In this document: positions 8,864 through 63,640 of the stretch, in pieces
Position numbering within the stretch: the stretch's first letter is position 1
Layout: the number at the start of each line of letters is the position of its first letter
Assembly (NCBI GenBank): GCA_949358305.1
Contig: OX442319.1
Location: 3,286,001 to 3,350,000, forward strand
Direction of reading: 5' to 3'
Source of the DNA: Strigamia acuminata
Taxonomy: Eukaryota > Arthropoda > Chilopoda > Geophilomorpha > Linotaeniidae
DNA: 64,000 nucleotides
The notes under the pieces: model-generated
Seen by the model: the letters and a program-made list of their open reading frames with translations, nothing else
The model's database searches: none
Told to the model about the DNA's origin: nothing
Made by a program: the position numbers and the translations under genes

Positions 8864-10390
8864 TTTGTTAATGGTGTTTGTTCTTGCCACACGTGCGCCA
8901 TCTATTGGCGAAATAAATACTTTTTCTTTTCTTCTTGATTTGTTGAATCTCGTATTTCCTTTTATTCAACTGACAAATACATAAATCATGTAAACAAACA
9001 AAACGTACACAAATAATTTTCTGTGTGAAATACCACGAATAGATTAGACGGCGCACATCGGTTACCGTAATGGTGAAAAGTTTAAATATTTTATTCATAA
9101 ATTTGTAAAAAAAAATTAAATTAAAAAATAAATCAGATCATGCAAAAATGCAGGATAATTTTGATAGTTTTATTCATTGTGCAATATATTACAAATGTCC
9201 ATTGTGCCCATTTTGTTCATCTCCACCTCCAAGGACACCCAGAGGAGCCGCTACCTCTCCGAGAACTTCATTCGGCTAGATAAAGCAATAAAATGTTAAT
9301 ACCATACGCAAAATAATTGCTTATTTGGCTTAAAAGACTTCTAAAGTTCAAGTTATACCATGTACTCCTGTCTATGTTCACGAAAATCCCCAACATCAAG
9401 TAAAGTTTCCGGTACGATGACGCCATCTTTAAAAAGTTTGAATCCAGCCTTGTTTTCTATGACCGCCAATTCCACTCGATATGCACCCAATTCCCGATGC
9501 AGACCATAGAATCGATTTTCCAATAAGTAACAACCGATGCTAAAACAGTCACCGTTTTTAGCAATGACTATTTTATAGTAATGACTGGGAAAACCGAGAC
9601 GATTAGTCTGCGAAACTTGATAGTGCATTTCATCCGGACGTCTAAAAAATACAAAAACTATTAATTCATCACAAAATGCGAAGAAAGCTTTACGTGGGTT
9701 CAAACAACGGCCCGCTGAACACGTAAACATCGTCGTAATTTTCAGCCAAATATCGGCAGTAAATCTCCAAATCTCGCCACACACCAGTGTGGAATTGGAG
9801 ATGCTGAAAATTTAATTTAATTTGATTTAAGTAAAGACTGTAATTGCATAATTTTACCTGTGGGACACAGTTGGTGCGAATATGGCAATCAGCGGCGCCC
9901 CGTGCCGAAATTGGGTAATTGGAGAAATCAGCGAGACCAAAACGTTGCATTTCTGTTTGAAAATCAATGTGGTCCGATTGGAATTCTTTTGGGACTCTCG
10001 AATCCAAGACATAAGCAAAGCTTCTTTGACAAAGATCTTCGTCTGCAAGAACTTGCATCTTGTCGCAGTTTAAGTGTTCTAAAACCCAGTTGGGCATGCG
10101 GTTCCTCTGGTCGTACGATATTTGAAAATGTCGATTTCTTAAAGTCACATCGCGCTGTGGCAGTCCGTACTTTGCGAAGCGACTTCCGAGGTGCGGATCT
10201 TGGTAGTGTTCACTTCCGGGCTGTCGTTCGAGGTCATGTATCTGCGCTTTCACTTTGAAAGTCTTCTGCCCCCATTGGTGGGTTAATCCGCAGAAATAAC
10301 CCATTCCTATACTTGTAGCGAATAAAACTCGAAAATAGGCCATGATTTGTTTATACACTGAATTTTTTTTAAATCCCACGATTTTTGAAA
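8830..10390. repeat. Segmental duplication, copy 1 (partner about 37340-38925)
   Basis: The start of SNUPN exon 1, its upstream region and the whole of EndoG-like gene A recur in the same order and orientation at about 37340-38925. The shared sequence includes introns and flanking non-coding DNA, so this is a DNA-level duplication. Divergence is visible but modest. Confidence 0.9.
9189..10343 (-). CDS. EndoG-like pseudonuclease A
   Basis: Member of the DNA/RNA non-specific endonuclease (EndoG) family, 321 residues. Exons 9858-10343, 9694-9803, 9359-9641 and 9189-9275. Residues 1-20 are a hydrophobic, targeting-like N-terminus. Then FAKYGLPQRDV (EndoG AKYGLP), YDQRNRMPNWVLEHL, RTNCVPQ (EndoG SNVAPQ), VWRDLEIYCRYL, YDDVYVFSGPLFEP, FPSHYYKIVI and a C-terminal sheet. 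The EndoG DRGH motif falls at residues 133-136 and reads QRFG, and the metal-binding Asn falls at His167. The protein should therefore not be an active nuclease of the known mechanism. The last exon encodes a short Gly-rich tail with GGGDEQNGHNGHL. Location in mitochondria is inferred from the family. Confidence 0.88.
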
Positions 10391-10647
10391 TTTGCAACAA
10401 CTATGCAAACCACTGCAGTGTGGCCCATTGTTGCGTGTATAGTGTTAAAAATGAAGATTGCATTGTAAATATTGACACATTCCAACACATCTCCCAAAAC
10501 CTCCATCAAATCAAAAGAGTACTAAAATCGAATTTAGCGCCATCTGCTACCCAAGATATACTACTGTAGATGGAGCCACATGATGGAGCGATTGTGAGCG
10601 GAGCAGTCGTTCCGTGATTAGACAATTTATGGCGATTTCCAGTCAAC

Positions 10648-11984
10648 ATGCCACGCACGAGATTAATACCGAGCCTGGAAGAACTGTGTTTAAATGTGGT
10701 GACTGTTCATTACGAAGAGCGAGAGGTGCACGATGGACTGGCAAACCTACCGCCCATGCTTATTAACGACATATTTGAAAGACTGTGTGTACAATTCGAT
10801 CGCACCCTTCATCTTTTCCCGCCTAACCACAGACCAACTCTGCGGTCAAACATTTTCATCCATCCCGGCGCCGGATTCCTCTATTCGATAAAATAGGCCA
10901 AGTTTGTAGAAACCTCGTGGATTTGAGGGCGGAAAAGGATTTCGAAATTGTCAAAGATGATTCAGAAGTAGTGATTCCATCCATGGTTAAAATGATGCAA
11001 AGTTTACCGAAACTTCGACGTTTAAATCTTAGGTTGTGGCAACAGTGCACGACTGAAGTCATACTTGAAATCGGAAGAAATTGCCCGCTGCTCACACATC
11101 TCGACATCAATTGCCATAAAGTTACTGACGATGCGATCCAGACATTAATTTGTTGTGACAAGCTGGAGTATTTAAATATTTTTTACACTGGTATCACGGA
11201 AAGTGGGTGTTTGTTTCTTCTCAATACACTGCGCCATTTAAAAGTGTTTGAAAATAAATACTGGCGCAGATTATTACCGGAGTTAGAAAAACTGTCGAAC
11301 GAAGACAAAACATTGGTCACTTATTGCATCGAATCTGTTAGTGTAGAGAATATCGAAAACATCCCCATCTTGAGGACAATTTTTCCAAATTTAAGAAAGT
11401 TAGTGTTGGCAGACATAGAAGCTCATCTAGATTTTAATAATCTAATATGGCCACCAGGATTGACTAATCTCCAACTGTGGCATATTACGGCGGTCAATAT
11501 TCAAAATGTTAATTGCGCTTGGCCGATGTTAGAGACATTGGTATTTGATAGTGCTTTGAGTGTCCATGAAAATAATTGGATTATTGATGCTCCGTTGAAA
11601 AATCTTCGTCGACTGTTCTTCGGCGGTAATGTTGATAAACTCATTAGTCAAAAACAAATGAAAAAGTTATTGGTACAATGTACCAGTTTAGAAAAATTGT
11701 GCATTGACAATTCTGACACACTTTCTGACGATTTATTTTTGGAACTTGTTAAATTGAATGCGCTTAAGAATCTGAAAATGTTAGCGGTACCAAATTGCCA
11801 AGCTATAACTTCCGCTGTGATCATAAGATTGCTGGAAATGCAAAATCCATTGAATAAGTTATTCTTTTATTCTTGTAAGAATATTGACACCGAAATGATT
11901 GAAACTTATGTGAAAAGTAAAAATTTGGATGTGCAGGTTGAAGACAGGAATCTTCACTTTTACCAAACGGATTTCAAAAGATAA
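10648..11984 (+). pseudogene. F-box/leucine-rich-repeat gene with a frame break
   Basis: The N-terminal frame 10648-10896 has an F-box-like stretch (LPPMLINDIFERL). A second frame carries irregular LRRs of the AMN1/FBXL type (LPKLRRLNLRLW, CPLLTHLDINCHKVTDDAI, KLEYLNIFYTGIT, LKMLAVPNCQAITSAVI) and ends at 11984. The LRR frame is open upstream to 10827 and reads PLFDKIGQVCRNLVDL before the GTG at 10917, so the switch lies between about 10827 and 10896. I find no convincing intron there. It is either a one-base indel in a decaying or misassembled gene or a very small unusual intron. A role as an SCF substrate adaptor is inferred from the family only. Confidence 0.62.
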
Positions 11985-11993
11985 ATTACAATA

Positions 11994-12611: not shown

Positions 12612-12613
12612 TA

Positions 12614-12883: not shown

Positions 12884-13160
12884 AAATCGCATCATTTCCG
12901 TTTGAAAATCGATGTGGTCCGATTGGAATTCTTTTGGGGCTCTCGGATCCAAGAGACATCTATTAACCCATTCAGGAGAAAAACCATTCAAGTGTCATTT
13001 GTGTGATTATTCCAGTGTTCAAAGTGGGACTTTAAGGAAACATCTATTAACCCACACAGGAGAAAAACTATTCAAGTGCCATTTGTGTGATTATTCCAGT
13101 GCTCAAACTGGGGATTTAAGAAGACATCTCTTAACCCATACAGGAGAAAAAGCGTTTTAA
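12884..13160 (+). pseudogene. Chimeric relic: antisense EndoG-like exon 1 joined to C2H2 fingers
   Basis: 12884-12957 matches the complement of EndoG-like exon 1 (compare 38470-38535 of gene B). From 12958 the sequence abruptly becomes C2H2 zinc fingers: HLLTHSGEKPFKCHLCDYSS and two more, ending in HTGEKAF and a stop. The two parts form one open plus-strand frame starting at 12912, but its first 13 or so residues are antisense EndoG sequence. It is best read as a fusion of two duplicated fragments, not a selected gene. Confidence 0.75.
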
Positions 13161-14360: not shown

Positions 14361-14366
14361 CGGGTA

Positions 14367-24181: not shown

Positions 24182-24374
24182 ATTAGCGAGACAATAAGGG
24201 AAATAGCAGCTCACTGCAAATGATGCGCACCGTAATTAAACGATACGCGAGTACTATGAAAAGTTAGTTACTCTGAAACCTTCCTTTCGGCAAAATAGTC
24301 TCTAAAAAACGCCACTAATGCTTGTTAAATAGCAACTAGTTTATATGCGCTAGACTGAATAAACTCCAACAAGG

Positions 24375-24392: not shown

Positions 24393-24394
24393 CG

Positions 24395-28300: not shown

Positions 28301-28654
28301 TTGGAATTGTTGACAGGTTTGCAAGAAGGACATTGGAAGAGAGTGAATTTTGTTTGGTCTGACATGCTTGATTATATGTTTCGAATGAACGAAGAAAATT
28401 TAATTGATTTTACTCCCTTTAATGTTGTTCATTACAAGTATGGAAGTGAAAGTGACGATCTTGATGACCATAAATGTCGCTTTATCCAATATGCCTTTAG
28501 TGATAAAGATGCATTTGCTATTACTATGAAATGAATTTGATAATTTTTAAAGTAATTTTTTTAATGTCATTTTTGATTAATTTGGAATTAACATTTCAAT
28601 TTGTAAGTAATTACGAGTAAATTAAGCACACAATTTTAAGCAGTACCGTTTATT

Positions 28655-28735: not shown

Positions 28736-28739
28736 ATGC

Positions 28740-37686: not shown

Positions 37687-38871
37687 TTACACATGTCCAT
37701 TGTGCCCATTTTGTTCACCTCCACCTCCAAGGACACCCAGAGGAGCCGCTACCTCTCCGAGAACTTCATTGGGCTAGAATAAAGCAATAAAATATTAATA
37801 CCATATGCAAAATCGCATTTTAATTGCTTATTTGGCTTAAAAGACTTCTAAAGTTCAAGTTATACCATGTATTCCAGTCTATGTTCACGAAAATCCGCAA
37901 CATCAAGTAAAGTTTCCGGTACGTTGACGCCATCTTTGAAAAGTTTGAATCCAGCCTTGTTTTCTATGACGGCCAATTGCACACGATATGCACCCAATTC
38001 CCGATGCAGACCAAAGAATCGATTTTCCAATAAGTAACAAGCGAGGCTAAAACAGTCACCGTCTCTAACAATAACTATTTTATAGTAATGACTGGGAAAA
38101 CCGAGACGATTAGTCTGCGAAACTTGATAATGCATTTGATCCGGACGTCTAAAAAATACAAAAACTATTAATTCATCACAAAACCACAAATAACAATAAA
38201 ATGCGAAGAAAGCTTTACGTGGGTTCAAACAACGGCCCGCTGAACACGTAAACATCGTCGTAATTTTCACACAAATATCTGCAGTAAATCTCCAAATCTC
38301 GCCAAACACCAGTGTGGAATTGGAGATGCTGAAAATTTAATTTAATTTCATTTAAGTAAAGACTGTAATTGCATAATTTTACCTGTGGGACACAGTTGGT
38401 GCGAATATGGCAATCAGCGACACTCTGTGGTGACTTTGGGTAATTGGAGTAATCGGCGAGAGGAAATCGTTGCATTTCTGTTTGAAAATCGATGTGGTCC
38501 GATTGGAATTCTTTCGGGACTCTCGGATCCAAGAGATGCATAACGTTTCTTTGACAGAACTCTTCGTCTTCATCAACTCGCATCTTGTCGTAGTTTAAGT
38601 GTTCTAAAACCCAGTTGGGCATGCGGTTTCTCTGGTCGTACGATATTTGAAAATGTCGATTTCTTAAAGTCACATCGCGTTGTGGCAGTCCGTACTTTGC
38701 GAAGCGACTTCGGAGGTGCGGATTTTGGTAGTGTTTACTTCCGGGCTGTCGTTCGAGGTCATGTATCTGCGCTTTCACTTTGAAAGTCCTCTGCCCCCAT
38801 TGGTGGGCGGTTAATCCGCAGAAATAACCCATTCCTATACTTGTAGCGAATAAAATTCGAAAATAGGCCAT
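37687..38871 (-). CDS. EndoG-like pseudonuclease B
   Basis: Exons 38383-38871, 38219-38328, 37866-38148 and 37687-37773 give 322 residues, all in frame. It is the closest relative of gene A. The same landmarks are present (FAKYGLPQRDV, MPNWVLEHLN, VPQ, VWRDLEIYCRYL, FSGPLFEP, FPSHYYKIVI). The DRGH position reads QRFP and the metal-site Asn is His, so nuclease activity is not expected. The tail exon again ends in a Gly-rich GGGEQNGHNGH-type sequence. The upstream region was copied with the gene, so it may keep the regulation of gene A. Confidence 0.88.
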
Positions 38872-39065: not shown

Positions 39066-40296
39066 TTAAATATGCTGTTCTGCATTGGGTTCGCGGCCAT
39101 TTTGTTCATGACCTCCTGCGTCAAGATAATCTGCTATTGGGAAGTCAATCACTCCTGGAAGTTCATCGGGCTAAATAAAAAGAATTATAAAATAAAATTT
39201 AAGTGATGTTTAGCCAATCGATCGATTTTTTCTGCCGAATTTACCATGTAGACATGTCTGCGCTCACGAAAATCCAAAACATTAACAAGAGTTTCCGGTA
39301 TGTTGACGCCATCTTTAAACACTTTGAATCCGGCCTTTTTCTCTATATCCGACAAAGCTACCCGAAAGTCACTCAACTTTTCACATTGACCAATCTGCGC
39401 ATTTGGAAATAAATAACAACCGAGATGAAAACCACTGCAATTTCTCCCAATAATTATCTTATAATAATAATTGGGAAAAGCAAGATTGTGAGTCTGCGAA
39501 ACTTGGTATTGCATTCGATCAGGACTTCTGTAAATACACAAATTAAACATTTACCAACACCATAGTTAACACAAAAAGTGCTAAACGAAGATTTAAACTC
39601 ATCAAAAACATCGATTTTATAGAAATTACAGAGTGTGCTTTACGTGGGTTCAAACACGGGTCCGCTGAACACGTAAACGTCGTCGTAAACTTGAGTCAAA
39701 TATCTGCAATAAATCTCCACATCTCTCCACATACCGGATTGAAATTGAAGGTTCTGGAATTAAAACATGTGGAAATGGATTTTTAAAAGAAAAAATTAGT
39801 GATTTACTTGTGGGGCGCCATTGGTGCGACTGTGACATTCAAATACGCCTTTCGTAGAATTGCGGTAGTTGGAGAAATCCGCGAGATTAACTCGAAGCAT
39901 TACAGTCTCGAAATCGACCGCGTCCGATTGGAATTCCTTTTTGATTCTCGGTTCCAAGTGGAAGCTGAAATCTCTTCTGCACGTTATGCCATCTTTCGGG
40001 AGAGCAAGTTTCTCGCGCGTGAAATGTTCCAACACCCAGTTGGGCAAGAGATTTCTCTGGTCGTACGACATTTGGAAGTGTTTGTACCGCAGAATCACGT
40101 CTCGTTGCGGGAGTCCGTATTTTGCGAAGCGACTGCAGAGGTGCGGGTTTTGGTAGTGTTCGGAACCAGGCGCTTTTTCCGGGTCCGAAACTTGCGCTTT
40201 CACGTGGAAAGTTTGTTTCCGACATTGGTTCATCCATGGTCCGCACAAACAGCCGATTCCTGCAGTTGTAGCGAATAAAATTCGAAAACACGCCAT
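39066..40296 (-). CDS. EndoG-like pseudonuclease C
   Basis: Exons 39808-40296, 39644-39753, 39245-39527 and 39066-39170 give 328 residues. The start is MACFRILFATTAGIG. The DRGH position reads LRVN and the metal-site Asn is Gln. RFAKYGLPQRDV, LPNWVLEHF, APQ, MWRDVEIYCRYL and FSGPVFEP are kept. The tail exon encodes PDELPGVIDFPIADYL followed by GGHEQNGREPNAEQHI, nearly the same as the orphan exon at 33.5 kb. Gene C lies 195 bp from gene B in tandem. Confidence 0.88.
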
Positions 40297-44134: not shown

Positions 44135-44904
44135 CGATTCGACGATTTGATTTGGATTGAAATTCATTAAATAATGTCAGCAGTCTGTAGCATTCCATTG
44201 TTGCGCATTATTCAATAATAAAATGGCAGCTATTGTAGTGAGGTGTTTCTAAAACCTGTTGCTACTAAAACCCGGTTTGGTGTGAACACAACTCCACCCA
44301 AGTGAATATTGGATCCGTTGGTGTGAACACGGTATAACATGGTACATCATTTTTCTCGACTTTTCAGGCTTCTTGCATAAACCAACCATTTTATTCAGAA
44401 ATTTGAAATAAAAATATAAAAATAAATAAGCATACAAATAAGCTTGTGGTCTACTCTGGCTCTATAAAGTCCCCCTTCGGATGCCCATTTTGATCACCAG
44501 CTCCTCCAAACTCAACATCATCTTCAGGGGCTGCTAACTCCTCTTGATCTTCGTTGGGCTATAATATAAGATTTCAAATTGTACGACAGTATTACCAGTG
44601 AAGCCTTTAGCCAATTAAGCGTTTGATAATTTCTAATAAGAGATACAACTAACAATTATTAATTAAATTTTCAAGGCTAGAAATACACAATTTATACAAC
44701 AGCATTAAATAATCAATATTGTTACGCGTACAGACCGTTCCGCTTACCGTATCGGCCGTTCCGCTTAACGGCCGATCCGTATCGCTCATATTAGATTAAT
44801 TAGTTGTTTTTGGAGTCATGGGGACAATTCCTCAAGCACAAGGATGTGAAGACATTGTTCACCGAAAAAACTGACGATTTGGAAGTTTATACACAACTAA
44901 TTAA

Positions 44905-45629
44905 CCCTCAGATGGACAATCTCCAAAGACGACACTTTGGTGCCCATAATGTACCAAATTTGGGACAAAATAATTAAATCCGGAAGGCCGTTAGCTTAAG
45001 CGCTGTTAGGGTAGTGCGAAAAATTGTCGCACTTGGCGCTACTGTTGTCGAGCCAAGAAAATTAATTTTTAGTCAAGAAAATTAATTTTAAGTGAAAAAG
45101 TTTAATTTATCCTAAAAAATTTAATTTTAAGTGAAAAAGTTCAATTTATCCTAAAAAATTTAATTTTAAGTGAAAAAGTTTAATTTATTCTAAAAAATTT
45201 AATTTTAAGTGAAAAACTTTAATTTATCCTAAAAAATTTAATCTTAAGTGAAAAACTTTAATTTATCCCAAAAAAATTAATTTTAAATGTATATTTTAGC
45301 CAGAAATGGAACCATGTAATCACTTGTGTTGGACTACTAGCGCCACACGGTGTCTGCTGATAAAAATTGGAAGCACTAAGTAGAAGCACTTATAAAAAAT
45401 TGGGAGAAGCCAACTTAAATTTAAGCTGGAATTTCTAAGGGGCAGAATTTTCAAAGGTGAATAAATAAATAAATAATGTTCAGAACACTCCAATTTTTTT
45501 TTTAAACAAACATTATTGTTGAGTGAACAAAGTCAGAAATTTTCAGAAAATTATATTAAACCAAAAAAAAGTTTTCCTATTCAAGAAGAGTGTTGTCCCA
45601 AAATTGGTATAGGGTTGCCCATCTGAGGG
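44905..45629. mobile_element. piggyBac-type MITE nested in the previous element
   Basis: TTAA on both sides (44901-44904, 45630-45633). Ends are CCCTCAGATGGACAA and TTGCCCATCTGAGGG. A related copy starts at 63798 and runs off the window. The interior carries an AT-rich minisatellite. Confidence 0.85.
45055..45295. repeat. AT-rich minisatellite, about 39-bp unit
   Basis: Tandem units alternating TTTAATTTTAAGTGAAAAAG and TTTAATTTATCCTAAAAAA within the piggyBac-type MITE. The same array begins at the end of the window (63965-64000). Confidence 0.85.
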
Positions 45630-46763
45630 TTAATCGAATATGAGCGATACGGATCGGTTATAAGCGGAACGGTCCGTACGAATAACAACATCAATAATTT
45701 GAGTTTGAATTCGAAAGCTTTACATGGGTTCAAACAGTGGCCCACTGAATACGTAAACATCATCATAAATTTGAGTCAAATATCTGCAATATCTCTCCAA
45801 ATCAGCCCACACACCCATTTGAAAGTCAAAATTCTGAAATTAAATCTCAGTATGACGTGTTTAAACTAAATTAATCAATATTTACCTGTGGGACACTATT
45901 GGTGCGAGTATGCATGTCAATGACGCCCTTTGTGGAGTTAATGTGATTGGATAAATCAGTTAAAGTATTTCTAAACACTTCTGTTTGATACTCGATGCCA
46001 TCCGATTGAAATTCCCTTTTCACGGTCGGATCCCAGTGAGGATTGAAATTACTCTTCGACATTGGACAGTTGTCCGGAGTATTTAGTTTGACACGGTTCA
46101 AGTGTTCCAAAACCCAGTTGGGCAATCGGTTTCTCTGGTCGTACGACATTTGAAAATGTGTATATCTTAAAGTCACGTCTCGCTGTGGCAGTCCGTACTT
46201 TGAGAAACGACAACCGAGGTGCGGATTTTGGTAGTGGGCACAACCAGGCGTTGTTTCCGGATCCAGAACTTGCGCTTTTACTTTATAGCTCTTTTTCTCT
46301 AGTTTGTTGATGATTATGTACGATCCACAGATACATCCGACTCCTGTAGCTATAGCGAATAAAATTCGATGATAGGCCATGTTGGGTTTACACTCTGAAT
46401 TTTTTAAATCTCAAACTAACAAGCAACAGATGATAAATTCAAAATTCCGACGCTAGTCGGCAGCGATTTTCAAACTGTTGAAGCATTAGTCGCTTCTGAA
46501 AAATTCGTTGTGTAGCTTTCAAGTGGATCTCTATTTTTCGTGTGGTTAATGATAAACTCAGTGTCGACCGACGAAACAAATACTGACCATTGTAATGATA
46601 AATATATAAATAATAATTCACAACACATTCAACATTTTTATGTAATATACTTGTAAGCTCGCGAAAATTTTATTCAAAAATTTGTAAAAGTAAACAAATG
46701 TGTGAAATAAATAGAGAAAAAGAAAGAAAAAGAAAACAAAATAATATGGAAATCAGCTATAAA

Positions 46764-48429
46764 TCAATTGGGCGCTTCATGTCCATTGTGGCCATTTTGA
46801 TCAACACCTGCTCCAATCGGCATTTCGTTATCTGGTGGAAAATCTATGAGATTGGGAACTAAATCTTCGTCGGGCTAGATAAAACATTACATTTAATTAA
46901 GCTTAGAAGGCCTATTTGGCTTTTAAAGTCCAAGATGTTACCAAGTAGAATAGCAAGCGCTCACGGAAATCGCAAATATTAGCTAAGGTTTCCGGAATGT
47001 TGACGCCATCTTTAAAAAGCTTGAATCCAACCTTGTTTTCTACGACAGACAATTCCACTCGAAAATCACGCAATTCCAGATTTGGACCAATCCGTCGATG
47101 TGGTATCAAGTAACAACCAAGATGAAAATTATCACGTGTTTTACCGATAATTATTTTATAGTAATGCGTGGGATAAGCAAGATGATTAGTCTGCGAAAGT
47201 TGATATAGCATTCGATCTTGACGTCTACAAATGCAGAAATTACGGTATAGTATAAAAATTATCGATAATTTGAATTTTAGTATAAAAATTATCGATAATT
47301 TGAATTTTAGTATAAAAATTATCGATAATTTGAATTTTAGTATAAAAATTATCGATAATTTGAATTTTAGTATAAAAATTATCGATAATTTGAATTTTAG
47401 TATAAAAATTATCGATAATTTGAATTTTAGTATAAAAATTATCGATAATTTGAATTTTAGTATACAAATTATCGATAATTTGAATTTTAGTATAAAAATT
47501 ATCGATAATTTAAATTTTAGTACAAAAATTATCGATAATTTGAATTTTAGTATACAAATTATCGAGAATTTGAATTTTAGTATAAAAATTATCGATAATT
47601 TGAATTTTAGTATAAAAATTACCGATAATTTGAATTTTAGTATAAAAATTACCGATAATTTGAATTTTAGTACAAAAATTACCGATAATTTGAATTTTAG
47701 TACAAAAATTATCGATAAATTGAATTTTAGTATGTTATTTAGTGATAAAATGATTATCAACATAGTTTTACGTCGGTTCAAACACCGGTCCGCTGAATAC
47801 ATAAACATCGTCATAAACTTCAGTCAAATATCTGCAATACCTCTCCAAATCTACCCACACACCCATACTAAATTCCCGAATCTGAAATTAAATATTGCGT
47901 TTAAAATGTGTGTAAAAAGAAAAGTATTCAAAACTACTTGCGGGACAGCATTGGTCCGAGCATGAGTATCGATTATGCCGCTTGCAGCATTCACGTAATT
48001 GTTGAAATCAGCCATTGTAGCTCTTTCCAACCCATCAGCTACAAAATCGATGTTATCCGACTGGAATTCTTTCTTCACCTTTGGTTCCCAGTGATAATGG
48101 AAATTACTCTTAGAAAATCCGGAATCGTCTTCATCGTTAAGGAGATTCAAATTCAAATGTTCGAGAGTCCAGTTGGGCATTAGGTGTTTCTGATCGTACG
48201 ACATTTGAAAATGTCTATACCGTAAAGTCGCATCTCGTTGTGGCAGTCCGTACTTAGCGAAGCGACTTCCGAGGTGCGGATTTTGGTAGTGTTCACTTCC
48301 GGGCTTTCGTTCGAGGTCCCGCTTTTGCGCATTCACTTTGAAAGTATTTTCTCCCAATTTGTTGATGCATGATCCGCAGAATAATCCGATTCCGGCGCTT
48401 GTAGCGTAGAAAATTCGTAAATAGGCCAT
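46764..48429 (-). CDS. EndoG-like pseudonuclease E
   Basis: Exons 47938-48429, 47772-47881, 46942-47224 and 46764-46874 give 331 residues in frame. Start MAYLRIFYATSAGIG. Kept landmarks: RFAKYGLPQRDA, MPNWTLEHLN, AVPQ, VWVDLERYCRYL, YDDVYVFSGPVFEP, YPTHYYKIII. The DRGH position reads ERAT and the metal-site Asn is Ser. The tail exon encodes GAGVDQNGHNGHEAPN. Intron 2 holds sixteen copies of a 30-bp repeat. The frames running through that repeat on both strands (47231-47965, 46912-47814) are artefacts of its length being a multiple of three. Confidence 0.88.
47251..47730. repeat. 30-bp minisatellite, 16 copies, in intron 2 of EndoG-like E
   Basis: The unit is TATAAAAATTATCGATAATT followed by TGAATTTTAG. 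It contains the 14-base palindrome AATTATCGATAATT. Copies are nearly identical at the proximal end and drift (ATCG to ACCG) toward 47.7 kb. It is present only in this member of the family. Confidence 0.95.
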
Positions 48430-49965
48430 GGTTTGTTTACACTCTTAATTTTTTTAAATAGTGACAAACTTCTGGTAACAATTACGAGTGACATTTGCAG
48501 TCTGGCGCGCTGCAGTTTTTGTTTGTTGTTTAACAATTAAAAAGAAAATCCCAGGTTTTCGTGTTTGCTCACAGATTTTATTCACATATTAGTAATAAAA
48601 GAAATAAAAATGCATGAAACAAAATTGGTGTATTGATGAATTTTGCTATACATGTTCGTTGTGTCCATTGTGCCCATTCTGATCGCCTCCGCCGACATCT
48701 TGTATTGGATTGTCCATTTCTCCTTGTTGTTCAGGAGGCTAGATAAATAAAATAAATAAAATAAATAAAATAATTATTTATAAATTTGCGCCATATGCAT
48801 TTCAGTGTTTAATTGCTAGCAAATCCTTTAATTAGCCAAATAAGCAATTGCTGTTTTCTTAATAAAAATGGAAATAGGAAATCAGAGATCAAAGTAGCCG
48901 GTCAAACTTAAAATAAACCGAACAGAATCTAATTAATGCTCGTTCATTTTAAATCTTCATTTCCCATCAACCATCATCTTGAATAAAGATTAACATCCTC
49001 AATGTGAATCTTCCAACCAATGGGAGTATTTCAAGTACTTTTCGGAATAGAGTTTAGCTATTACAGCAAACATTTCAAGTGCGTAATTACAATAAAATAT
49101 CAAAAAAACTAAAAAAAAATTAAAACTATTTGCTTATTTGGCTTAAAGGCTTCTAAAATCGAAGTTTACCATGTAGTGATCTTTGTGTTGACGAAAATCA
49201 AAACAATCGGGCAGGATTGTGATTTCGCGTAACTGAACACCTTTAAAAAGCTTGAGTCCGGCTTTTTGCTCTACGGCCGACAATCCTATCCGATATTCAG
49301 TCAACCCGTGCTGTTGACCGATCGGTTGATTCGGTAAGAAGAAACAACCAACGCTTAAATCATTCCCCTTTCTACAAATAATTATCTTGAAGTAATGACT
49401 GGGAAAAGCGAGATGATTAGCTCGCGACACTCGATACGCCATCCGATTCCCAGCTCTGTAAATACACAAAATACACAAAACTTGCAAAAGAAATAATTGC
49501 AACCAAATCTCGAATGTTTACGCTGGTTCAAACACCGGCCCGCTGATCACATAAACGTCGTCGTAAAGTTTGGTCAAATATCTACAATACAAATTTAAAT
49601 CTTTCCATATGCCATTATGAAATTGGCAGTTCTGAAAATCAAATATGGCGGCTTGTAATGTGAAGAGTGTTTGAAGAGCACATTCACCTGTGGAACAATA
49701 TTGGTCCGAAGATGAGCTTCGCGGATGCCCGTTGCAGAATGTAGATAGTTGGCGAAGTCGGCGAGAGGAAATCCGATATTGTCCGTTTCTAAATCGACTT
49801 CAGTCGATTGAAATTGCTCGGTAATTCTCGGATCGAAGTGACTATTTACATCTGTATTTGTGCGAGACGATCCGCCTTCTCTCGGAGCATTTAGTTTGTG
49901 ACAATTCAAATGCTCCAACGCCCAGTTGGGTAAAAGGTTTCTCTGGTCGTACGATATTTGGTAGT

Positions 49966-52900
49966 TGGAGTATATTGATTGTAACGCCATCTAGTGTTCT
50001 TGTATTGAGATTATGTATCTGTGTTCGAGATTAAAACTTGTCAACTTTGCAACCATCATGGAGTTCACTGCCTCGTGATTTCGGTATATTACAATTGGCG
50101 ACGAGGTCAAAATTTTGTGTGTGAAAGGTGCATTTTGGACAATTTATTTCAATTTGGATCAACCATGGCTCAATTCATTGGACAGTTATCTGAGTATGAT
50201 GTCAACTCAGACTGGGACATGTATGTGGAGCAATTGGAGCAACTTTTTGAACTGAATGCAATTGAAGACAAGAAAGTGGCTATTTTATTGGGAACAATTG
50301 GATCACATGGCTACAAAATGCTGAGGGATTTATGTGCACCTGATTTGCCAAAAACCAAGACTTATGATGACTTGGTTACATTAATGCATGACCACCAGAA
50401 ACCGAAACCAATGGTTGCTGCTGAGAGGTTTAGATTCTTTAGAACTACTCAATTGGACACTGAATCAGTAAGTGCATTTGTTATCAAGTTGAAAGCAGCT
50501 GCAGAATTTTGCGAATTTGGACAACAATTGAATGATTATTTACGCGATCAATTTATTAACGGATTGAGATTTGAAAACGTGCAGCGCCATCTGTTGACGG
50601 TGAAGGGACTCACATTTCAAAAAGCAACTGAGACTGCGCTCAGCATGGACACGGCATCAAAGGAAGTGCAGAAGTTTCATTCTAAGACTGAAAATAAGGA
50701 CAATACTGTGCACAAAATTCAGGACAATAAATCGGGGTTTTATAAAAAAGGTAAAACTGATTTTAAAAAGAAATTTTCAAATTCTCAGGATCACTCATCT
50801 GGCCAAAAATCTGATGGAAATAAGCAACGCAGATGCTATGCGTGTGGTTCACCAGATCATTTTCGTGATAAATGCAGATTTAAGGATTCTGATTGCCACA
50901 ACTGTGGTCAGAAAGGACATATTCGCAAATTTTGCCATGTGCGGTCAACATCTCATCAGCTCAATCAGCCAAGCAGGGACAGAGGTGGAGCATCATCGGG
51001 CAAGCAGCCTGCAGCGAATTCCGTGCGTGTTGATGATGATATTTTTGTGCCATTCCACCGTGTTTGCCACGTGCGTGACACCATCGTGGATCCTGTATTT
51101 GTTGACGTGAACATTGAAGGAGTCAATTTAGCCATGGAAGTTGACAGTGGATCTTCACTCACATTAATTGATGAACAATGTTTTAATACTCATTTTTCTA
51201 AATTTAAGTTAAATGCTTCTCCAGTTCGCCTGCGTGCGTTCACTGGTGAATTGTTATCACTTTTGGGGGTATTTGGGGTATCAGTGTTTTTTCAGGGTGC
51301 CCATTACTCTGTCCAATTGCATGTTGTTGAGGGAATGAAGGGGTCGTTACTGGGTAGGGATTGGTTGGACACTTTTGGGTTGTTGAAATCAATTCGGGGT
51401 TTAGTTAGTGAGCCCAAACAAGTGAATGCAGTTGATGGGGTTTTGCCTTCTCCACCACTTGATTTAGCTAGTGCAAAAGTACAACTTGAGGAAATTTTGG
51501 CAAGTCATAAGACTGTTTTTAGTGGGGGTATTGGTCAGTGTAAGGGGGTACAATTGCACATACCTGTTGACAAAAATTTTCAACCAATTTTTCTGCCAGC
51601 ACGTAACCCGCCACTAGCCTTACGAGCTAAAATGGAGGCTGAGATTGATCGTCTTGTTGAAGCAGGGGTTCTGGAACCGGTTCAGCATGCCCGGTGGGCT
51701 ACACCGGTCACTCCAGTGGAAAAATCCGATGGAACAGTTAAATTGGCGGGACTGTATAATTTAACAGTGAACAAGGCACTGCCTAAAGTGGTTTACCCAC
51801 TTCCACGTTTTGAACAAATCACAAGCACACTGGCGGATGGTGAGTATTTTTCAACTTTTGATTTTTCGGATGCGTATAATCAGTGGGAACTTGATCAGGA
51901 GTCACAGGAGGTTATGGTTATCAATACGCATAAGGGTTTATTTTTGGTGAAAAGATTGTTTTATGGGGTTTCGTGTGCGCCCGCATTGTTTCAACAGTCA
52001 ATGGAACAGTTGGTCAAACCAGTTGTGAAGACCCAACCTTTTTTGGATGATGTGTGTGCCACTGGTCGCTCAGTTCCTGAGCATCTCAAGGTAGTTGATC
52101 ATTTGCTCACAATTTTTGAGGAAAAAAATTTGCGGTTGAATGCAAGGAAATGCAAATTTTTTCAAGATAAGGTTAAATTTTTGGGTCATGTGTTTTCAAA
52201 GGATGGATATGCGCCGATTCCAGCACGCATTGATGGTCTGGTTAAGGCAGCTACACCGAAGAATGCAGGTGAATTGCATACGTACATTGGCATGATAAAT
52301 TATTATGCTCGGTTTTTGCCGAACTTAGCCACTGTTTTGGAACCACTTTATTATTTGTTGCGACAAGGGGTGGTGTGGCGTTGGGGCAAGCAACAGGAAC
52401 AAGCTATTGACGGGGTGAGGAAATTATTGGCTAGTGCCACATTTTTGGTACATTTTGACCCGTCAAAGCAAACGGTTTTGACCGTGGATGCATCTCCTTT
52501 TGGAGTAGGCGCGCAGTTATCCCAAGAGGATGAATTGGGTCGGAAACAAACAGTTGCCGTTGCGAGTGGTCTTTTGAATGCGGCTCAGCGCAATTATTCG
52601 CAGACAGATCGTGAGGGGTTTGCAATAATCTTTGGAGTTAAGAAATTCCACCATTATTTGTATGGGCACAATTTTATTTTGGAAACCGACCACAAGCCTT
52701 TAGTTTCAATTCTTGGGGATAAGCGCGGATGCAATGAAATTGTGGCGGCTAGATTGCAACGCTGGTGCGTATTTTTAAATGCGTATAATTTTCAGATTAG
52801 GCACATTGCTGGCAAGAGTAATGTGGTAGCGGATGGGTTGTCACGGCTAGCGATTAATAATGTTGATTTTGATGACTCCGACATTCCGTTACATGCCGTT

Positions 52901-54344
52901 TTCCGTGCACAATTAGAATCGATGCCTATTTCTGCGGTTGTAGTTAGGAAACGGACTTTGGAGGATTCTATTTTAGCTAGAGTTTTGCTTTTAGTGCGTG
53001 AGGGGTGGCCCTCGGGAACTATTGAAGTGGATCTTGCGCCTTGGCATCGGGTTAGGAAGCAGTTATCAGTAGAGGGCGATTGTTTGTTTTACAATGACAG
53101 GGTTGTTGTACCTAAGGTGCTACAGAGCAGTATTTTGACAGAGTTACATTCTGGACATCCGGGGGTGGTCAAAATGAAATTATTGGCCAGGTCAATTTGC
53201 TGGTGGCCCCGCATGGATTCAGATATTGAGCGAATGGTCAGGGAGTGTGAATTGTGTCAAATCAATTTACCGGCCCCGGCTCGTGAGCGTAATGTAGCAT
53301 GGCCAACGCCTGCAGAGGCATGGGGGCGAATTCATGTAGACTTCGCTGGGCCCTTCTTTGGTCACATGTTTATTTTGTGTGTGGATGCAAAATCCAAATG
53401 GCCGGAAATTGTTATGATGAAGGGTACGACAGCACGTGACACGATTGAGGTATTTGAGGAATGGTTTTCTAGGCATGGTCTACCTTTGCATGTACATTCA
53501 GACTGTGGACCACAGTTCACAAGCGAGGAGTTTGTTCAATTTTTGGCAATGAATGGGGTGCGTCAGTCCCGTTCGCCACCTTACCATCCAGCGACGAATG
53601 GGGCTGTGGAAGGGTTTGTTGGTACTTTCAAGACAGGAATGAAGAAGTTTATGGCTGAGCATGGAAACATTAAGCGTGCGTTGCGCCAGTTTTTGTCTAG
53701 TTATCGTACCACTCCTCATTGTACTACTTTGGTGACTCCAGATGCGTTATTCAGGGAGAAGGAGATGCGTACGAGGTTACATTTATTGCGACCTAGGCGA
53801 GAGGACGAGTTGTCCACTCCAGTGGTGCGTAGGAAGTTTTCGATTGATGATTTGATTTATGCCAGAGACTACAGAAGTAGTAGTCGATGGATTGCGGGAA
53901 AAATATTTAAGTTGTTATCACCTGTAACTTATTTAGTTCAATTGCATAATGGGGTATTTTGGAAGCGTCATGCTGATCAATTGCGTGGCCGAGTTGTACA
54001 ATCTTTGAATGGTTCTAGTTCTTTTCAAGTTGAGGAGGACTGGGAACCTGGGAATGGAAATTGTGTTGTTGGTTCTGGTAATGAGAGTTCTGGGGTTGAA
54101 CAGGATGCTGGAAATGATCCTGTAGTTGCACCTAGGCGATCAACTCGTGTTCGTCGTCCCCCAGCTCATCTCAGAGATTTTATTAGGGATTAAGTGTTTG
54201 TCTGAGGGGGAAGAGTTGGAGTATATTGATTGTAACGCCATCTAGTGTTCTTGTATTGAGATTATGTATCTGTGTTCGAGATTAAAACTTGTCAACTTTG
54301 CAACCATCATGGAGTTCACTGCCTCGTGATTTCGGTATATTACA
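49966..54344 (+). mobile_element. Full-length Ty3/gypsy retrotransposon 2
   Basis: 4,379 bp with a 5-bp duplication GTAGT (49961-49965, 54345-54349). The 128-bp LTRs (49966-50093, 54217-54344) are identical by reading, and are unusually short. A purine tract GAGGGGGAAGAG precedes the 3' LTR. ATTGGCGACGAGG directly after the 5' LTR is the likely primer site; its tRNA was not assigned. One long gag-pol frame and no env. The insertion is very recent. Confidence 0.96.
50165..54193 (+). CDS. gag-pol: Gag-Pol of Ty3/gypsy element 2, single frame
   Basis: 1,342 residues from MAQFIGQLSEYD; the frame is open back into the LTR, but this is the first ATG in good context. Domains: retroelement gag; two CCHC knuckles (CYACGSPDHFRDKC and CHNCGQKGHIRKFC, about 50835-50940); protease (VDSGSSLTLI, about 51143); reverse transcriptase with FLDD at 52036, a change from the usual YxDD; RNase H (TVDASPFGVG, TDREGFAI); integrase HHCC (ELHSGHPG to CELCQ); DDE core (HVDFAGPF, HSDCGPQF, GAVEGFVG). 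It resembles the K02A2.6-like branch of animal gypsy elements. No stop or frameshift, so it is possibly active. Confidence 0.95.
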   Translation: MAQFIGQLSEYDVNSDWDMYVEQLEQLFELNAIEDKKVAILLGTIGSHGYKMLRDLCAPDLPKTKTYDDLVTLMHDHQKPKPMVAAERFRFFRTTQLDTESVSAFVIKLKAAAEFCEFGQQLNDYLRDQFINGLRFENVQRHLLTVKGLTFQKATETALSMDTASKEVQKFHSKTENKDNTVHKIQDNKSGFYKKGKTDFKKKFSNSQDHSSGQKSDGNKQRRCYACGSPDHFRDKCRFKDSDCHNCGQKGHIRKFCHVRSTSHQLNQPSRDRGGASSGKQPAANSVRVDDDIFVPFHRVCHVRDTIVDPVFVDVNIEGVNLAMEVDSGSSLTLIDEQCFNTHFSKFKLNASPVRLRAFTGELLSLLGVFGVSVFFQGAHYSVQLHVVEGMKGSLLGRDWLDTFGLLKSIRGLVSEPKQVNAVDGVLPSPPLDLASAKVQLEEILASHKTVFSGGIGQCKGVQLHIPVDKNFQPIFLPARNPPLALRAKMEAEIDRLVEAGVLEPVQHARWATPVTPVEKSDGTVKLAGLYNLTVNKALPKVVYPLPRFEQITSTLADGEYFSTFDFSDAYNQWELDQESQEVMVINTHKGLFLVKRLFYGVSCAPALFQQSMEQLVKPVVKTQPFLDDVCATGRSVPEHLKVVDHLLTIFEEKNLRLNARKCKFFQDKVKFLGHVFSKDGYAPIPARIDGLVKAATPKNAGELHTYIGMINYYARFLPNLATVLEPLYYLLRQGVVWRWGKQQEQAIDGVRKLLASATFLVHFDPSKQTVLTVDASPFGVGAQLSQEDELGRKQTVAVASGLLNAAQRNYSQTDREGFAIIFGVKKFHHYLYGHNFILETDHKPLVSILGDKRGCNEIVAARLQRWCVFLNAYNFQIRHIAGKSNVVADGLSRLAINNVDFDDSDIPLHAVFRAQLESMPISAVVVRKRTLEDSILARVLLLVREGWPSGTIEVDLAPWHRVRKQLSVEGDCLFYNDRVVVPKVLQSSILTELHSGHPGVVKMKLLARSICWWPRMDSDIERMVRECELCQINLPAPARERNVAWPTPAEAWGRIHVDFAGPFFGHMFILCVDAKSKWPEIVMMKGTTARDTIEVFEEWFSRHGLPLHVHSDCGPQFTSEEFVQFLAMNGVRQSRSPPYHPATNGAVEGFVGTFKTGMKKFMAEHGNIKRALRQFLSSYRTTPHCTTLVTPDALFREKEMRTRLHLLRPRREDELSTPVVRRKFSIDDLIYARDYRSSSRWIAGKIFKLLSPVTYLVQLHNGVFWKRHADQLRGRVVQSLNGSSSFQVEEDWEPGNGNCVVGSGNESSGVEQDAGNDPVVAPRRSTRVRRPPAHLRDFIRD

Positions 54345-54941
54345 GTAGTGTTTATATCTTAAAGTCACATCTCGTTGTGGGAGTCCGTATTTTGCGAAGC
54401 GACTGCCGAGGTGCGGATTGTGGTAGTGTTCGGAACCGGGCATTCGTTCCGGGTCCCGTAATTGCGCTTTCACTTTAAATGTATTTTCCGCCCAGTGGTC
54501 GATACATGATCCGTAATAATATCCGATTCCTGCGGTTGTTGTGTATAAAATTCGAAAATAGGCCATGATTATATCAACACTTTGAATTTTTTAGTAGTAG
54601 GACTTTTGCCTGGTGGTAGGTGTTTGTACCAAATACGAGCGTCGTTGTTGGTGATACGAAGTACGAAGCGTGTTTTAGGTTTATTTGTTTTTGTTTTTTG
54701 ATGTTCAAAAATAGAAAAACAAAAAAGCAAACACGAAAAAGCCTTAAAAATCCAACTTTTTGAATGCAGCGAGTGGTTAAATAAAGTTAAAGGTTCAATT
54801 AAACTGCAATCGAAGAAAAATACAAAGAATAACAAAATATTAATTTCAAAAATTAATAACATAATCTCATAAAAATGCAGTTAGAAAAATGTACAATCAC
54901 AACACGTTTTATTTTATTGAAACACAAATTGAAACAAATTT

Positions 54942-55724: not shown

Positions 55725-55789
55725 TTTGAATATATATTTAAAAAAAAAACGATCTTCAAGCTGACTCAGTAAATGGTTGTTTTGCAAAC

Positions 55790-58027: not shown

Positions 58028-58099
58028 TTTGAATATATTTTTTTTTAAAAAAAAAAGACCTCCAAGCTGACTCAGAAAATGATTGTTTTGCAAACTGAC

Positions 58100-58952
58100 A
58101 CCGAATTTATGCTGATAAATATGATATCACTCAATCACTTCATAAATAATCTGTCTGAAATTAAAAGAAGTCATATATCAGGTATTATAGGTACACATAT
58201 TTTATAAATAATATTGCTGTGAATATAGTCACGCGAAAAAATGTAATTTCTTGCCATTTTCCTAACAACAGTAACAAAATAAAACTCCCTTCACCTCCAA
58301 CCCGATCATTTTTTTTATCCCACGCAAAGAAAAAAATCTAATTTATGAAAATGATTCTACTCTTGAACTATTTCATAAATATCACTTCAAACGCTTTTCT
58401 CCTGTATGAGTTACAAAATATTTTTTAAATACCTTTTCTGACCGTAGAAATAAGGACAAAGATGGCGCTTCAATGCTTGTTTGTCTGTATGAATTGTTAA
58501 AGGACACGGCGGATCCTTCGATAGGCTTGTGGAACTGATAGATCAAGCAAACCATAATAAAATAAACCGTAAGAAGTAATTTTTACAAGTACAAACTTCA
58601 GTAACGTTATATCTTACCTCAATTCTTCCAAAACGACCAAACGATTTTTCTCAACTGCAAAAGCGCGAGGTGAATCGCAGCTTCGTCCCACCAATGGAAC
58701 ACAACCAATGGAGGGGGCCAGGGGCTCGGGGAAAAAGCATTGTGATGACGACCTTGGGAATACAGAAGTTGGCATCGTATTTTGCAATGACCCAATTTGA
58801 AGAGAGAACAAATAAAATAAAATCAACTTGTTAAATTTAATCCATTTTTTTCTTTAATTTTGGTGCGAATATTGCGGATGGACGAGAAATTTTAATGACT
58901 ATTAACAGTATCAAAATCTAAATCATAAAAATGAATAAAAGATGTTTTAAAA
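58100..58952. other. Upstream region of finger gene 2
   Basis: Same composition as the equivalent part of unit 1, with the relic finger at about 58400-58500. The frame at 58614-58826 is not conserved in the other units. Confidence 0.5.
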
Positions 58953-59867: not shown

Positions 59868-60734
59868 TCACTTTTCAACATTTTTGGTATGCTTTGATAA
59901 ATGATTTTTCAAACTACTACAACGCGCACAGGAATAAGCGCAAAGATGGCACTTGAATGGTTTTTCAACTGCGTGAGTTGCAATGTGGGTTTTTAAATTC
60001 CCACTTGTAATACACGAATAATCACATGAATGACACTTGAATCGTTTTTCACCTGTATGAGTTGCAATATGACTTCTTAAATGTCCACTTTCTATACAGG
60101 AATAATCACATAAATGACACTTGAATGGTTTTTCACCTGTATGAGTTAGAATATGGTTTTTTAAACTCCCACTTTGAATACAGGAATAAGTACAAAGATG
60201 GCACTTGAATGGTTTTTCACCCGAATGGATTGCAATGTGGTTTTTTAAATTCCCACTTGTAATACTGGAATAATCACATAGATAACACTTGAATCGTTTT
60301 TCACCCGTATGAGTTGCAACATGTTGTCTTAAATGTGCACTTTGAATACAGGAATAAGCACACAGATGACACTTGAATTTTTTTTCATCTGTATGAGTTA
60401 CAATATGACTTTTTAAATGTGCCCTTTGAACACAGGAATAAGCACAAAGATGGCACTTGAATGGTTTTTCACCCGTATGAGTCGCAATATGAGTTTTTAA
60501 ACTCCCACTTGTAGTACTGGAATAATCACACAAACGGCACTTGTATGGTTTTTCTCCCGTGTGAGTTCGCATATGAACAACTAATGTTTGTTTATGCCTA
60601 AAAGAAGTTGAACACACTTGGCATTTGAATGGTTTTTCACCAGTGTGTATAAGCATGTGATTCTCCAAACGTGAATAAACTGAGCCCGAATAATCACACA
60701 GATTGCAACTATAATGCTGTTGTTTTCTCTTCAT
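59868..60734 (-). CDS. C2H2 zinc-finger protein, 10 fingers (copy 3)
   Basis: 288 residues from MKRKQQHYS. Fingers 1, 2 and the last match copies 1 and 2 closely. Several middle fingers match copy 1 (CIQSAHLRQH, SITSGNLKNH), so copies 1 and 3 are the closer pair. One finger reads CHSC at its first Cys pair; spacing is intact. As in the other copies Cys or Ser replaces the finger Phe. No effector domain is seen. Confidence 0.88.
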   Translation of the reverse strand: MKRKQQHYSCNLCDYSGSVYSRLENHMLIHTGEKPFKCQVCSTSFRHKQTLVVHMRTHTGEKPYKCRLCDYSSTTSGSLKTHIATHTGEKPFKCHLCAYSCVQRAHLKSHIVTHTDEKKFKCHLCAYSCIQSAHLRQHVATHTGEKRFKCYLCDYSSITSGNLKNHIAIHSGEKPFKCHLCTYSCIQSGSLKNHILTHTGEKPFKCHLCDYSCIESGHLRSHIATHTGEKRFKCHSCDYSCITSGNLKTHIATHAVEKPFKCHLCAYSCARCSSLKNHLSKHTKNVEK

Positions 60735-60973
60735 TTTGAATATATATTTAAAAAAAAACGACCTTCAAGCTGACTCATAAAATGGTTGTTTTGCAAACTG
60801 TCACCAACTTTATGCTGATAAATATGATATCACTCAATCACTTCATAATTGGTCTGTCTGAAATTAAAAGAAATCAAATATTAGGGAGATTAGGTACACA
60901 TATTTTATAAATAATATTGCTGTGAAAATAGTCACGCGAAAAAATGTACCGGTAATTTCTTGCCATTTTCTTA

Positions 60974-61286: not shown

Positions 61287-61289
61287 TTA

Positions 61290-62477
61290 ACAACAGTAAG
61301 AAAATAAAACTCCCCCTAACCCGATCATTCTTTTTATCTCACGCTAAGAAAAAATCTAATTTATGAAAATGATTCTACTCTTGAATTATTTCATAAATAT
61401 CACTTCTGTATGAATTGCAAAATATTTTTTAAATACCTTTTCTGACCGTAGAAATAATGACAAAGATGGCGCTTCAATGCTTGTTCGTCTATACGAATTG
61501 TTAAAGGACACGGCGGATCCTTCGACAGGCTTGTGGAACTGATAGATCAAGCAAACTATAATAAAAAGAACCGTAAAAGGTAATTTTTACAAATACAAAC
61601 TTCAGTTACGTTATATCTTACCTCAATTCTTGCAAAAAGACCAAACGATTTTTCTCAACCGCAAAAGCGCGAGGTGAATCGCAGCTTCGTGTCCCACCAA
61701 TGGAACACAGCCAATAGAGGGAGTCAGGGGACGGGCATTGTGATGATGATGACGACCTTGGGAATACAGAAGTTGGTATCGTATTTTGCAATAAAGAGAG
61801 GGCAAATAAAATAAAATCAACTTGCTAAATTTAATCCATTTTTTTTTTTAAATTTTGGTGTGAATATTGCGGATAGACGAGAAATTTTAATGACTATTAA
61901 CAGTATCAAAATCTAAATCATAAAAATGAATAAAAGATGTTTTAAAATTGAAAATTAAGCAATAGTAATAGATAAATTGAAACAAACGTTCAGAGTTTTT
62001 AGAAAAATACAGAAATTAAACACAAAAAAAGCCACTTGCGAAATTGAATCCAGTCTAAAATTTTGGCAAATGGCAGATCGTTTTTTAGCAAATAAAATAA
62101 ACTATAGCTCAGATCAAAAAGTTATAGGCACCATTTGAAGGAGCGGTAAATTCTACACAGGAAACATGTTTTAAAGTTGTTAAAACCGAAAGTTGAAACA
62201 CACAAACATTCAAGACTTTAAAAAGGGAATGAAATAGATAAATTACGAGAAAAAAATTCAATTGTAAAGAAGAATTTATTTTCAAATAACATCATATTGT
62301 ACATGAATAATGTAGAGTCGCTTGGGTCTTTTGAGACAATTCACAAAATCATTCTTTTTCATGTTGGCTCAGAGATTTTATTCCGAAATTTTTATACGAA
62401 ATTAAAGGAAATATATATGAAAACAAGCTTGCCCACTTGATCAATTCTGCTGTCCATTTGCATTCTGCCCATTACAT
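61290..62477. other. Upstream region of finger gene 3 and intergenic DNA
   Basis: Holds the relic finger (61390-61510) and the conserved unit block. No intact gene; the minus frame at 61623-61820 is not conserved in frame in the other units. Confidence 0.5.
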
Positions 62478-63640
62478 TCACCACCTCCATACCTCTCCTT
62501 GACGTTCGTTGGGCTAGACCATACATTACAAGACACGTTTAATTATTAACAAAACCTAACTTTGAGTTTCCTACAGCTTGTCAGCTTGTATGGGAGCAGC
62601 TCGAAAGCTGTATAATTGAGATTGAAGGCTTATTTGGCGTTTAAAGTCTAAATTACCATGTAGTCGAGTCTGCGTCGACGAAAATCAAAACAATTAGGTA
62701 GGCCTACTTCGGGAAAGTTGACGCCATCTCTAAAAAGCTTGAATCCAACCGCCTGTTCCAAGTCTGTCAACGGTACTTGGAATTCACTCAATGAGCACTC
62801 AGGACCAACGCGTCGATTTGGCAATAAAAAACAAGCAAAATAAAAATCGTTCCCTTTTTTACAAATAATTATTTTAAAGTAATGACTGGGAAAAGGAACA
62901 CGATTACGAGTGTGCGATACTCGATATTGCACGTGCTGTGGATCTCTAGAAATACAAAAATCACACATTACCAGCACAATTAGGCCTAAGTATTCGTGAC
63001 ATTTACGTGGGTTCGATCACTGGTCCTGTGAATACGTAAACGTCGTCATAAAGTCGGGTCAAATATCTGCAATATATATTCAAATCTCTCCACACACCAG
63101 TCAAAAATTGGATATTCTGGAATAAAATGTTAGAATGGCTTTAAAAAGTGAGTATATTTGCATATTTACCTGTGGTACACTGTTTGTTCGAGTGTGTGCA
63201 TCGGTTTTACCCTGTCTAGTTGTGTAATTGACGTAATCAGCTAGAGGATATCCGACCATTTCTGTTTCATCGTCGATACTGTCGGATTGAAATTCCTTTT
63301 TAATCCTCGGATCGAAGTGTCTGGTTGCAATTCTTCGAGAAAATCCGCAATCTTTCGGAGCATTCAGTTCGTTACAATTCAAATGCTCCAAAACCCAATT
63401 GGGCATTCGGTTCCTCTGATCGTACGATATTTGAAAATGTTTATATCTTAAAGTGACATCTCGTTGCGGCAGTCCGTACCTTGCAAAGCGGCTTCTGAGG
63501 TGCGGATTTTGGTAGTGTTCGCATCCGGGTGTTCGTTCGGGGTCCACTAATTGTGCCTGCACTTTAAATTTGTCCTTATACGATCCGCAGAAACATCCGA
63601 TTCCTGCAGTCGTAGCGTATAAAATTCGAAAATGGGCCAT
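62478..63640 (-). CDS. EndoG-like pseudonuclease G, shortened tail
   Basis: Exons 63170-63640, 63007-63116, 62657-62945 and 62478-62513 give 301 residues. Start MAHFRILYATTAGIG. Kept landmarks: RFARYGLPQRDV, MPNWVLEHLN, SVPQ, VWRDLNIYCRYL, YDDVYVFTGPVIEP, FPSHYFKIII. The DRGH position reads VGYP and the metal-site Asn is Leu. In the tail exon an indel shifts the frame, so the tail stops after PNERQGEVWRW; the usual GGGECNGQNANGQQN lies downstream out of frame. The body of the protein is intact. Confidence 0.82.

Follow-up and report, generated by a model that had tools for sequence, protein, structure and literature searches.

What could a cluster of EndoG-like genes be for, if residues that EndoG needs for cutting are missing from every one of them? 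The question is raised by a 64,000-nucleotide stretch of the Strigamia acuminata genome (contig OX442319.1, here C8, positions 3286001-3350000; hereafter the window). As a rule, the mitochondrial nuclease EndoG is encoded by one gene and is highly conserved, and to our knowledge other animals have one copy. We analyzed the window loci together with their relatives throughout the genome (237.5 Mb in 157 contigs). Judging from the sequences, the window very probably holds part of a large EndoG expansion, and its genes form a pseudonuclease clade that, if judged by how EndoG is known to work, would have little or no catalytic activity.

Homology and active-site positions of the window loci

We found seven EndoG-like loci in the window, all on the minus strand and spanning positions 9189-63640, where the initial annotation of this DNA had placed them. 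Homology to EndoG, for which that annotation had proposed a profile search, was borne out by Pfam: Endonuclease_NS, a beta-beta-alpha-Me domain, matched all 10 exon pieces submitted from the window, nine of them above the cut-off, as well as the spliced proteins of gene A (1.6e-29; 103.6 bits, cut-off 23) and gene E (7.5e-31). No other Pfam domain was found in these two proteins, and NCBIfam assigned gene A to no family. In the PDB, it matched EXOG (2.2e-28), fly EndoG (1.5e-25) and worm EndoG (1.7e-21). Exon models were built with a purpose-written protein-to-genome spliced aligner that accepts only GT-AG and GC-AG introns, so that the exon borders hold by construction. The following lines give the loci, with the residues found at the DRGH position and at the position of the metal-site Asn (four residues before the Trp), and the associated features.

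Gene A: 9189..10343, minus strand; exons 10343-9858, 9803-9694, 9641-9359 and 9275-9189 (including the stop); QRFG and His; 321 aa
QNGHNGH tail motif: 9195..9215, minus strand; in exon 4 of gene A
Gene B: 37687..38871, minus strand; exons 38871-38383, 38328-38219, 38148-37866 and 37773-37687; QRFP and His; 322 aa
Gene C: 39066..40296, minus strand; exons 40296-39808, 39753-39644, 39527-39245 and 39170-39066; LRVN and Gln; 328 aa
Locus D: 44451..46380, minus strand; exons 46380-45886, 45833-45724 and 44558-44451 (exons 1, 2 and 4); FRNT and Gln
Gene E: 46764..48429, minus strand; exons 48429-47938, 47881-47772, 47224-46942 and 46874-46764; ERAT and Ser; 331 aa
Locus F: 48646..54566, minus strand; exon 1 split into 54566-54345 and about 49965-49688, followed by exons 49631-49522, 49455-49170 and 48738-48646; IGFP and His
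LTR retrotransposon: 49966..54344, plus strand; inserted in exon 1 of locus F, with a single long frame at 50009-54193
Gene G: 62478..63640, minus strand; exons 63640-63170, 63116-63007, 62945-62657 and 62513-62478; VGYP and Leu
Copy L020: starting 12.6 kb ahead of the window; plus strand
L015: two copies and a fragment (L015c), beyond the window end

The catalytic His and the metal-site Asn are both gone in all seven window loci and in all 10 models of the clade to which they belong (clade I). The residues listed above for A-G are exactly those first written down in the initial annotation, and the phmmer register, which is independent of our alignment, agrees with them: Gly136 of gene A falls on the catalytic position of EXOG and His167 on its metal-site Asn (residues 140 and 171, numbered from PMC5418593 and by hand count). 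In human EndoG, the H141A variant has <0.01% activity and N172A about 0.1%, and Asn163, Asn251 and Glu271 are further functional positions (PMC2653514). The corresponding residues of gene A (N158, N241 and E261) are kept as in the canonical EndoG of this genome at 80% or more in the clade; at the Asn251-type position of gene E, Asn is replaced by His. Since residues of these three types are largely conserved, the loss is specific and not a general decay.

Four coding exons and a stop codon are present in each of genes A, B, C and E, and frames are open in five of the seven loci (A, B, C, E and G). The four-exon structure and long intact frames that had been ascribed to the whole set thus hold for these five, the last exon of gene G being shortened and in a reading frame unlike that of the other copies, and do not extend to D and F, which are broken. 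Exon 3 could not be recognized in locus D (best tblastn E 0.093). In locus F, exon 1 is split by the LTR element, whose two ends are identical over about 128-131 nt, which indicates that the break is very recent; the target duplication is ACTAC (by eye), and apart from this break the locus is open, with exon 4 present. Gene B is a recent duplicate of gene A (dS 0.10). The QNGH motif of the exon-4 tail also occurs in B, D, E and F, with QNG in C and none in G as read, and AATAAA lies no more than 95 nt past the stop in all seven loci (frequency 0.19 in a random 160-nt stretch). Intron 2 of gene E contains a 30-nt unit repeated 16.2 times (47248-47733), which is open in frame with exon 3. Counting the copies beyond the borders of the window, the cluster comprises 10 copies and one fragment.

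Genome-wide expansion, tree and selection

Pfam Endonuclease_NS gave 63 exon matches over the whole genome, and a search with the canonical EndoG protein gave at least 79 matches, at least 51 of which are exon-3 places. These belong to one canonical EndoG, to two genes of the EXOG type and to at least 48 other places. A search for a canonical DRGH copy, also proposed in the initial annotation, found one:

Canonical EndoG: contig C3, L011 5616-6632; FDRGHLAAARNH and FNRDAWNKLE, with DRGH and Asn four residues before the Trp

This copy matches fly EndoG at 1.2e-102, with 153 of 239 residues identical (64%). The runner-up place by E-value is 41% identical to it over residues 3-168, with identities of up to 58% in some short exon matches, and a second canonical copy therefore seems unlikely from these comparisons. 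Two EndoG-like neighbors lie upstream of it (L011 1548-2817 and 3774-5157), the first of which has TKGH, Asn and Glu; omega between the two is 1.02. Scanning the genome for a codon pattern resembling DRGH gave 964 forward and 918 reverse matches, which was too loose, and this search was dropped; a scan of viral_contigs found no relative.

We aligned 37 models, namely the canonical EndoG, the two EXOG-type genes and 34 others; the residue table leaves out 11 of the 51 exon-3 places and one exon-1 place, and some clade IV models are based on weak exon matches. In both EXOG-type models the motif reads SRGH, and the Asn is present. Among the 34 non-canonical models, which include one with a gap at the His (L029p650) and one with a gap at the Asn (L022p8859), the His is present in 11, the metal-site Asn in six and the Glu in 14. 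R-G-H is kept by none of them, and only two (L010 and L011a) combine His, Asn and Glu. The consistent loss claimed at first is thus correct within the window and not uniform genome-wide; that the family is genome-wide, and that some members elsewhere keep His or Asn, could not be seen from the window.

A tree was built from 32 models, without five partial ones (L022p8859, two from L029, and loci D and F). In this tree, the EXOG-type pair was split from every EndoG-like model at 100/100 support, and the window genes grouped with EndoG, apart from the two EXOG-type genes. All non-canonical models formed one group, with weak support (67.9/80). The tree requires a minimum of four state changes for the His, five for the Asn and four for the Glu; if no residue was ever regained, the losses number eight, seven and four, respectively. 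Thus, the branches differ in the residues that they lost.

The dN/dS analysis across members that had been suggested at the outset gave a value well below 1. For the 10 members of clade I, with D and F partial, omega was 0.426 (lnL -6243.1, compared with -6315.2 when omega was set to 1 and the best-fitting of five kappa values was used), and omega = 1 was rejected (2dlnL about 144). Since residues are absent in differing combinations while omega is about 0.43, we regard the genes as an expanded pseudonuclease family and not as the decay of a single enzyme. Pairs from other clades gave omega values of 0.46 (L014), 0.29 and 0.31 (clade IV) and 0.19 (L013/L019, with dS near saturation). Within clade I, columns of the former active site are among the fastest, with site-rate percentiles of 95th for D, 94th for G, 85th for H and 92nd for the metal-site Asn, compared with 6th for N163, 26th for W177, 60th for R139 and 33rd for the Glu. 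The domain columns kept as in the canonical EndoG number 51 of 224. A further 28 columns, one of them a gap in the canonical protein, are invariant in the clade yet unlike the canonical EndoG, which points to a new constraint.

Possible roles and rival explanations

The window genes probably serve a new role that involves no cutting. Human EndoG is targeted to the mitochondrion by a cleaved N-terminal sequence (PMC13151035). Met is the first residue in 29 non-canonical models; in 25 of these, residue 5 is Arg, as in the canonical copy, and in 17 the Arg is also followed by the A/T-G..G motif. From this EndoG-like N-terminus we infer that the window proteins enter mitochondria. There they would make protein contacts but would not cut; the likeliest form of this role is competition for the partners of EndoG, or some other way of adjusting nuclease and death pathways in mitochondria. 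Even when inactivated (H141A), human EndoG forms dimers and binds DNA (PMC13151035), so that a dead EndoG fold can retain contacts. As a whole, this mechanism is a guess that we think more apt to be wrong than right. A bolder version is that at least 48 mitochondrial pseudo-EndoGs, with different sets of catalytic residues lost, under selection and with fast turnover next to NLR and zinc-finger genes, are rapidly evolving decoys for the partners of EndoG in an arms race over the destruction of mitochondrial DNA (mtDNA), of which paternal mtDNA elimination and parasite-driven death signalling would be examples; we consider this decidedly doubtful.

Several observations weigh against the view of the window genes as inactive but preserved. 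Given the conserved Asn163-, Asn251- and Glu271-type residues and the His at residue 154 of gene A, which is found in seven of the 10 clade I models, some residual or rebuilt chemistry may be present. D and F are two broken loci among seven. For the A-B pair, omega was 0.60 on 18.7 synonymous changes, and neutrality was not clearly rejected; for the L011a/L011b pair it was 1.02. The first 24 codons of clade I have a pooled dS of 0.33, compared with 0.90 in the domain, with a local omega of 0.77; their conservation can therefore not be read as clear evidence of constraint on the protein. Perhaps the low dS reflects gene conversion or a constraint at the DNA or RNA level. Finally, the 72 N-terminal residues of the canonical EndoG gave no match in the PDB.

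If only chance had kept the frames open, the copies would be functionless, decaying duplicates produced by EndoG birth and death, with intact frames that are young or lucky. The broken loci D and F, the fragmentary L015c, the very recent LTR insertion and the two pairs just mentioned agree with this. However, the clade I pairs other than A-B are still open at dS 0.5-1.2, and the rejection of neutrality, together with the 28 clade-specific invariant columns, argues for preservation; we therefore regard mere decay as improbable. More improbable still is a rebuilt site, in which the retained N158, N241 and E261 and a new H154/R156 pair would form an altered polar pocket that binds a new ligand or supports a new chemistry. 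H154 is present in all seven window loci and R156 in nine of the 10 clade I models, beside the three conserved residues. On the other hand, H154 lies four residues along the strand from N158, probably too distant to serve as a general base, and gene E has His at the N251-type position. The predicted structure, made for the contiguous exon 1-intron 1-exon 2 reading of gene A, was unusable (pLDDT 33) and did not enter a fold search.

There are two further alternatives. As the initial annotation proposed, the pseudo-EndoGs could inhibit the canonical EndoG by dimerising with it; they would then be dominant-negative decoys that give half-dead or dead dimers. EndoG is a homodimer in fly, worm and mouse crystals, human H141A also forms dimers (PMC13151035), and the window clade retains the domain-swap segment and hydrophobic patch of EXOG (in gene A, KYGLP and AGFKLF). 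The dimer loop varies among clades. EXOG loop 203-215 is part of the dimer interface (PMC5418593); placed on the family by hand count, with three models left out of this and the basic-residue count below, it has at least 20 residues in nine of 10 clade IV models (shortened in one), but 16-17 residues instead of 20 in eight of the nine scorable clade I models (21 in L015b) and 15-17 in seven of eight clade II models. Since the loop is shortened in the window clade, classical EndoG dimers are less likely for the window genes, which moreover are only about 28-36% identical to the canonical EndoG over long matched stretches; such decoys seem unlikely to us. Alternatively, the proteins could bind nucleic acids, as the initial annotation also suggested, but not cut them; they might, for instance, guard or package mtDNA or protect it from EndoG. 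The inactive human enzyme binds ssDNA, dsDNA and ssRNA with micromolar Kd (PMC13151035). Where canonical, fly and worm EndoG have a basic residue, clade I has kept one in 63 of 124 cells; the counts are 64 of 149 for acidic positions and 428 of 1033 for identity at all invariant positions. A preferential loss of basic residues was accordingly rejected. The domain alone is not unusually acidic, its net charge ranging from -4 to +7, compared with 0 for the canonical EndoG. When the C-terminal tail is included, the proteins of A, B, C and E come out acidic (net -4 to -13), a measure dominated by the tail; we had taken acidic charge as an argument against nucleic-acid binding and withdrew it because the domain alone is near neutral. 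Against such binding, Arg139, which adjoins the lost His and is linked to substrate interaction in human EndoG (PMC2653514), is kept in only five of 10 clade I models. We rate this alternative as somewhat unlikely.

Related systems and neighboring features

The window family shares with EndoG (fly CG8862, worm CPS-6) the whole domain, the N-terminal pattern of the genome's own EndoG and, by the tree, its ancestry. It differs in the loss of the catalytic His and the metal-site Asn, in the shortened dimer loop, in its many copies and in an additional C-terminal exon, mostly with QNGH. EXOG belongs to the same superfamily and gave the best PDB score for gene A; however, it keeps SRGH and the Asn, and the tree sets the window genes with EndoG. 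The nearest published analogue appears to come from fungi, in which RNase II active sites were lost more than once: as described in PMC8097288, Ssd1 and the fungal Dis3L2 pseudonucleases also keep a nuclease fold, lost the active site repeatedly and have a non-nuclease role. They have the RNase II fold, and their losses are spread across fungal lineages, some after duplication, whereas the EndoG-like family comprises dozens of paralogues within one animal genome. Drosophila EndoGI is a known protein inhibitor of EndoG whose domain 1 resembles the C-terminal domain of Ku80 (PMC13086865). It would have the same target if the inhibitor idea is right, but it is not an EndoG paralogue, and Pfam found no Ku80-C-terminal-like domain in genes A and E. 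One partial Ku_PK_bind match occurs in the genome (30.8 bits, cut-off 25).

The suggestion that such a family had not been described is consistent with the literature matches listed, which contained no EndoG pseudonuclease family; the search terms were mostly broad, and subscription papers fell mostly outside their scope. With one working EndoG beside dozens of altered copies, and with selection shown for the window clade, nature itself provides a way to ask which functions of EndoG depend on cutting. The family may also include an EndoG-derived regulator distinct from EndoGI. Pseudonucleases have evolved repeatedly in fungi, and this family is a further case, from an animal and with many copies.

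Other features of the window were also recorded. Tandem C2H2 zinc-finger frames on the minus strand (54942-55820, 57161-58126 and 59868-60764; one confirmed by Pfam and the other two by eye) are interspersed with the EndoG-like genes, and a zinc-finger-like 84-nt repeat lies near 12956 (12956-13151). On the plus strand are two tandem NACHT-LRR (NLR-like) genes, with the LRR part read by eye: that at 30616-33495 is a single open frame of 959 aa, and that at 25630-28534 is spread over two overlapping frames. The minus strand carries a long retrotransposon at 17424-24235, whose frames look gag-like and pol-like (by eye), and a transposase-like remnant, Tc1-like by eye, lies at 33910-35660, flanked by inverted copies of the same frame. 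A PRP31-like exon with Nop and Prp31_C domains is found at 35516-36253 on the minus strand, and the adjoining frame at 36201-36806 looks like part of the same gene (by eye). Elsewhere in the assembly, contig C157 (L055, L056) is the mitochondrial genome, with 15,068 bases and 63% AT; it contains an identical frame twice (8304-8513 and 11286-11495), and its gene order looks rearranged (by eye).

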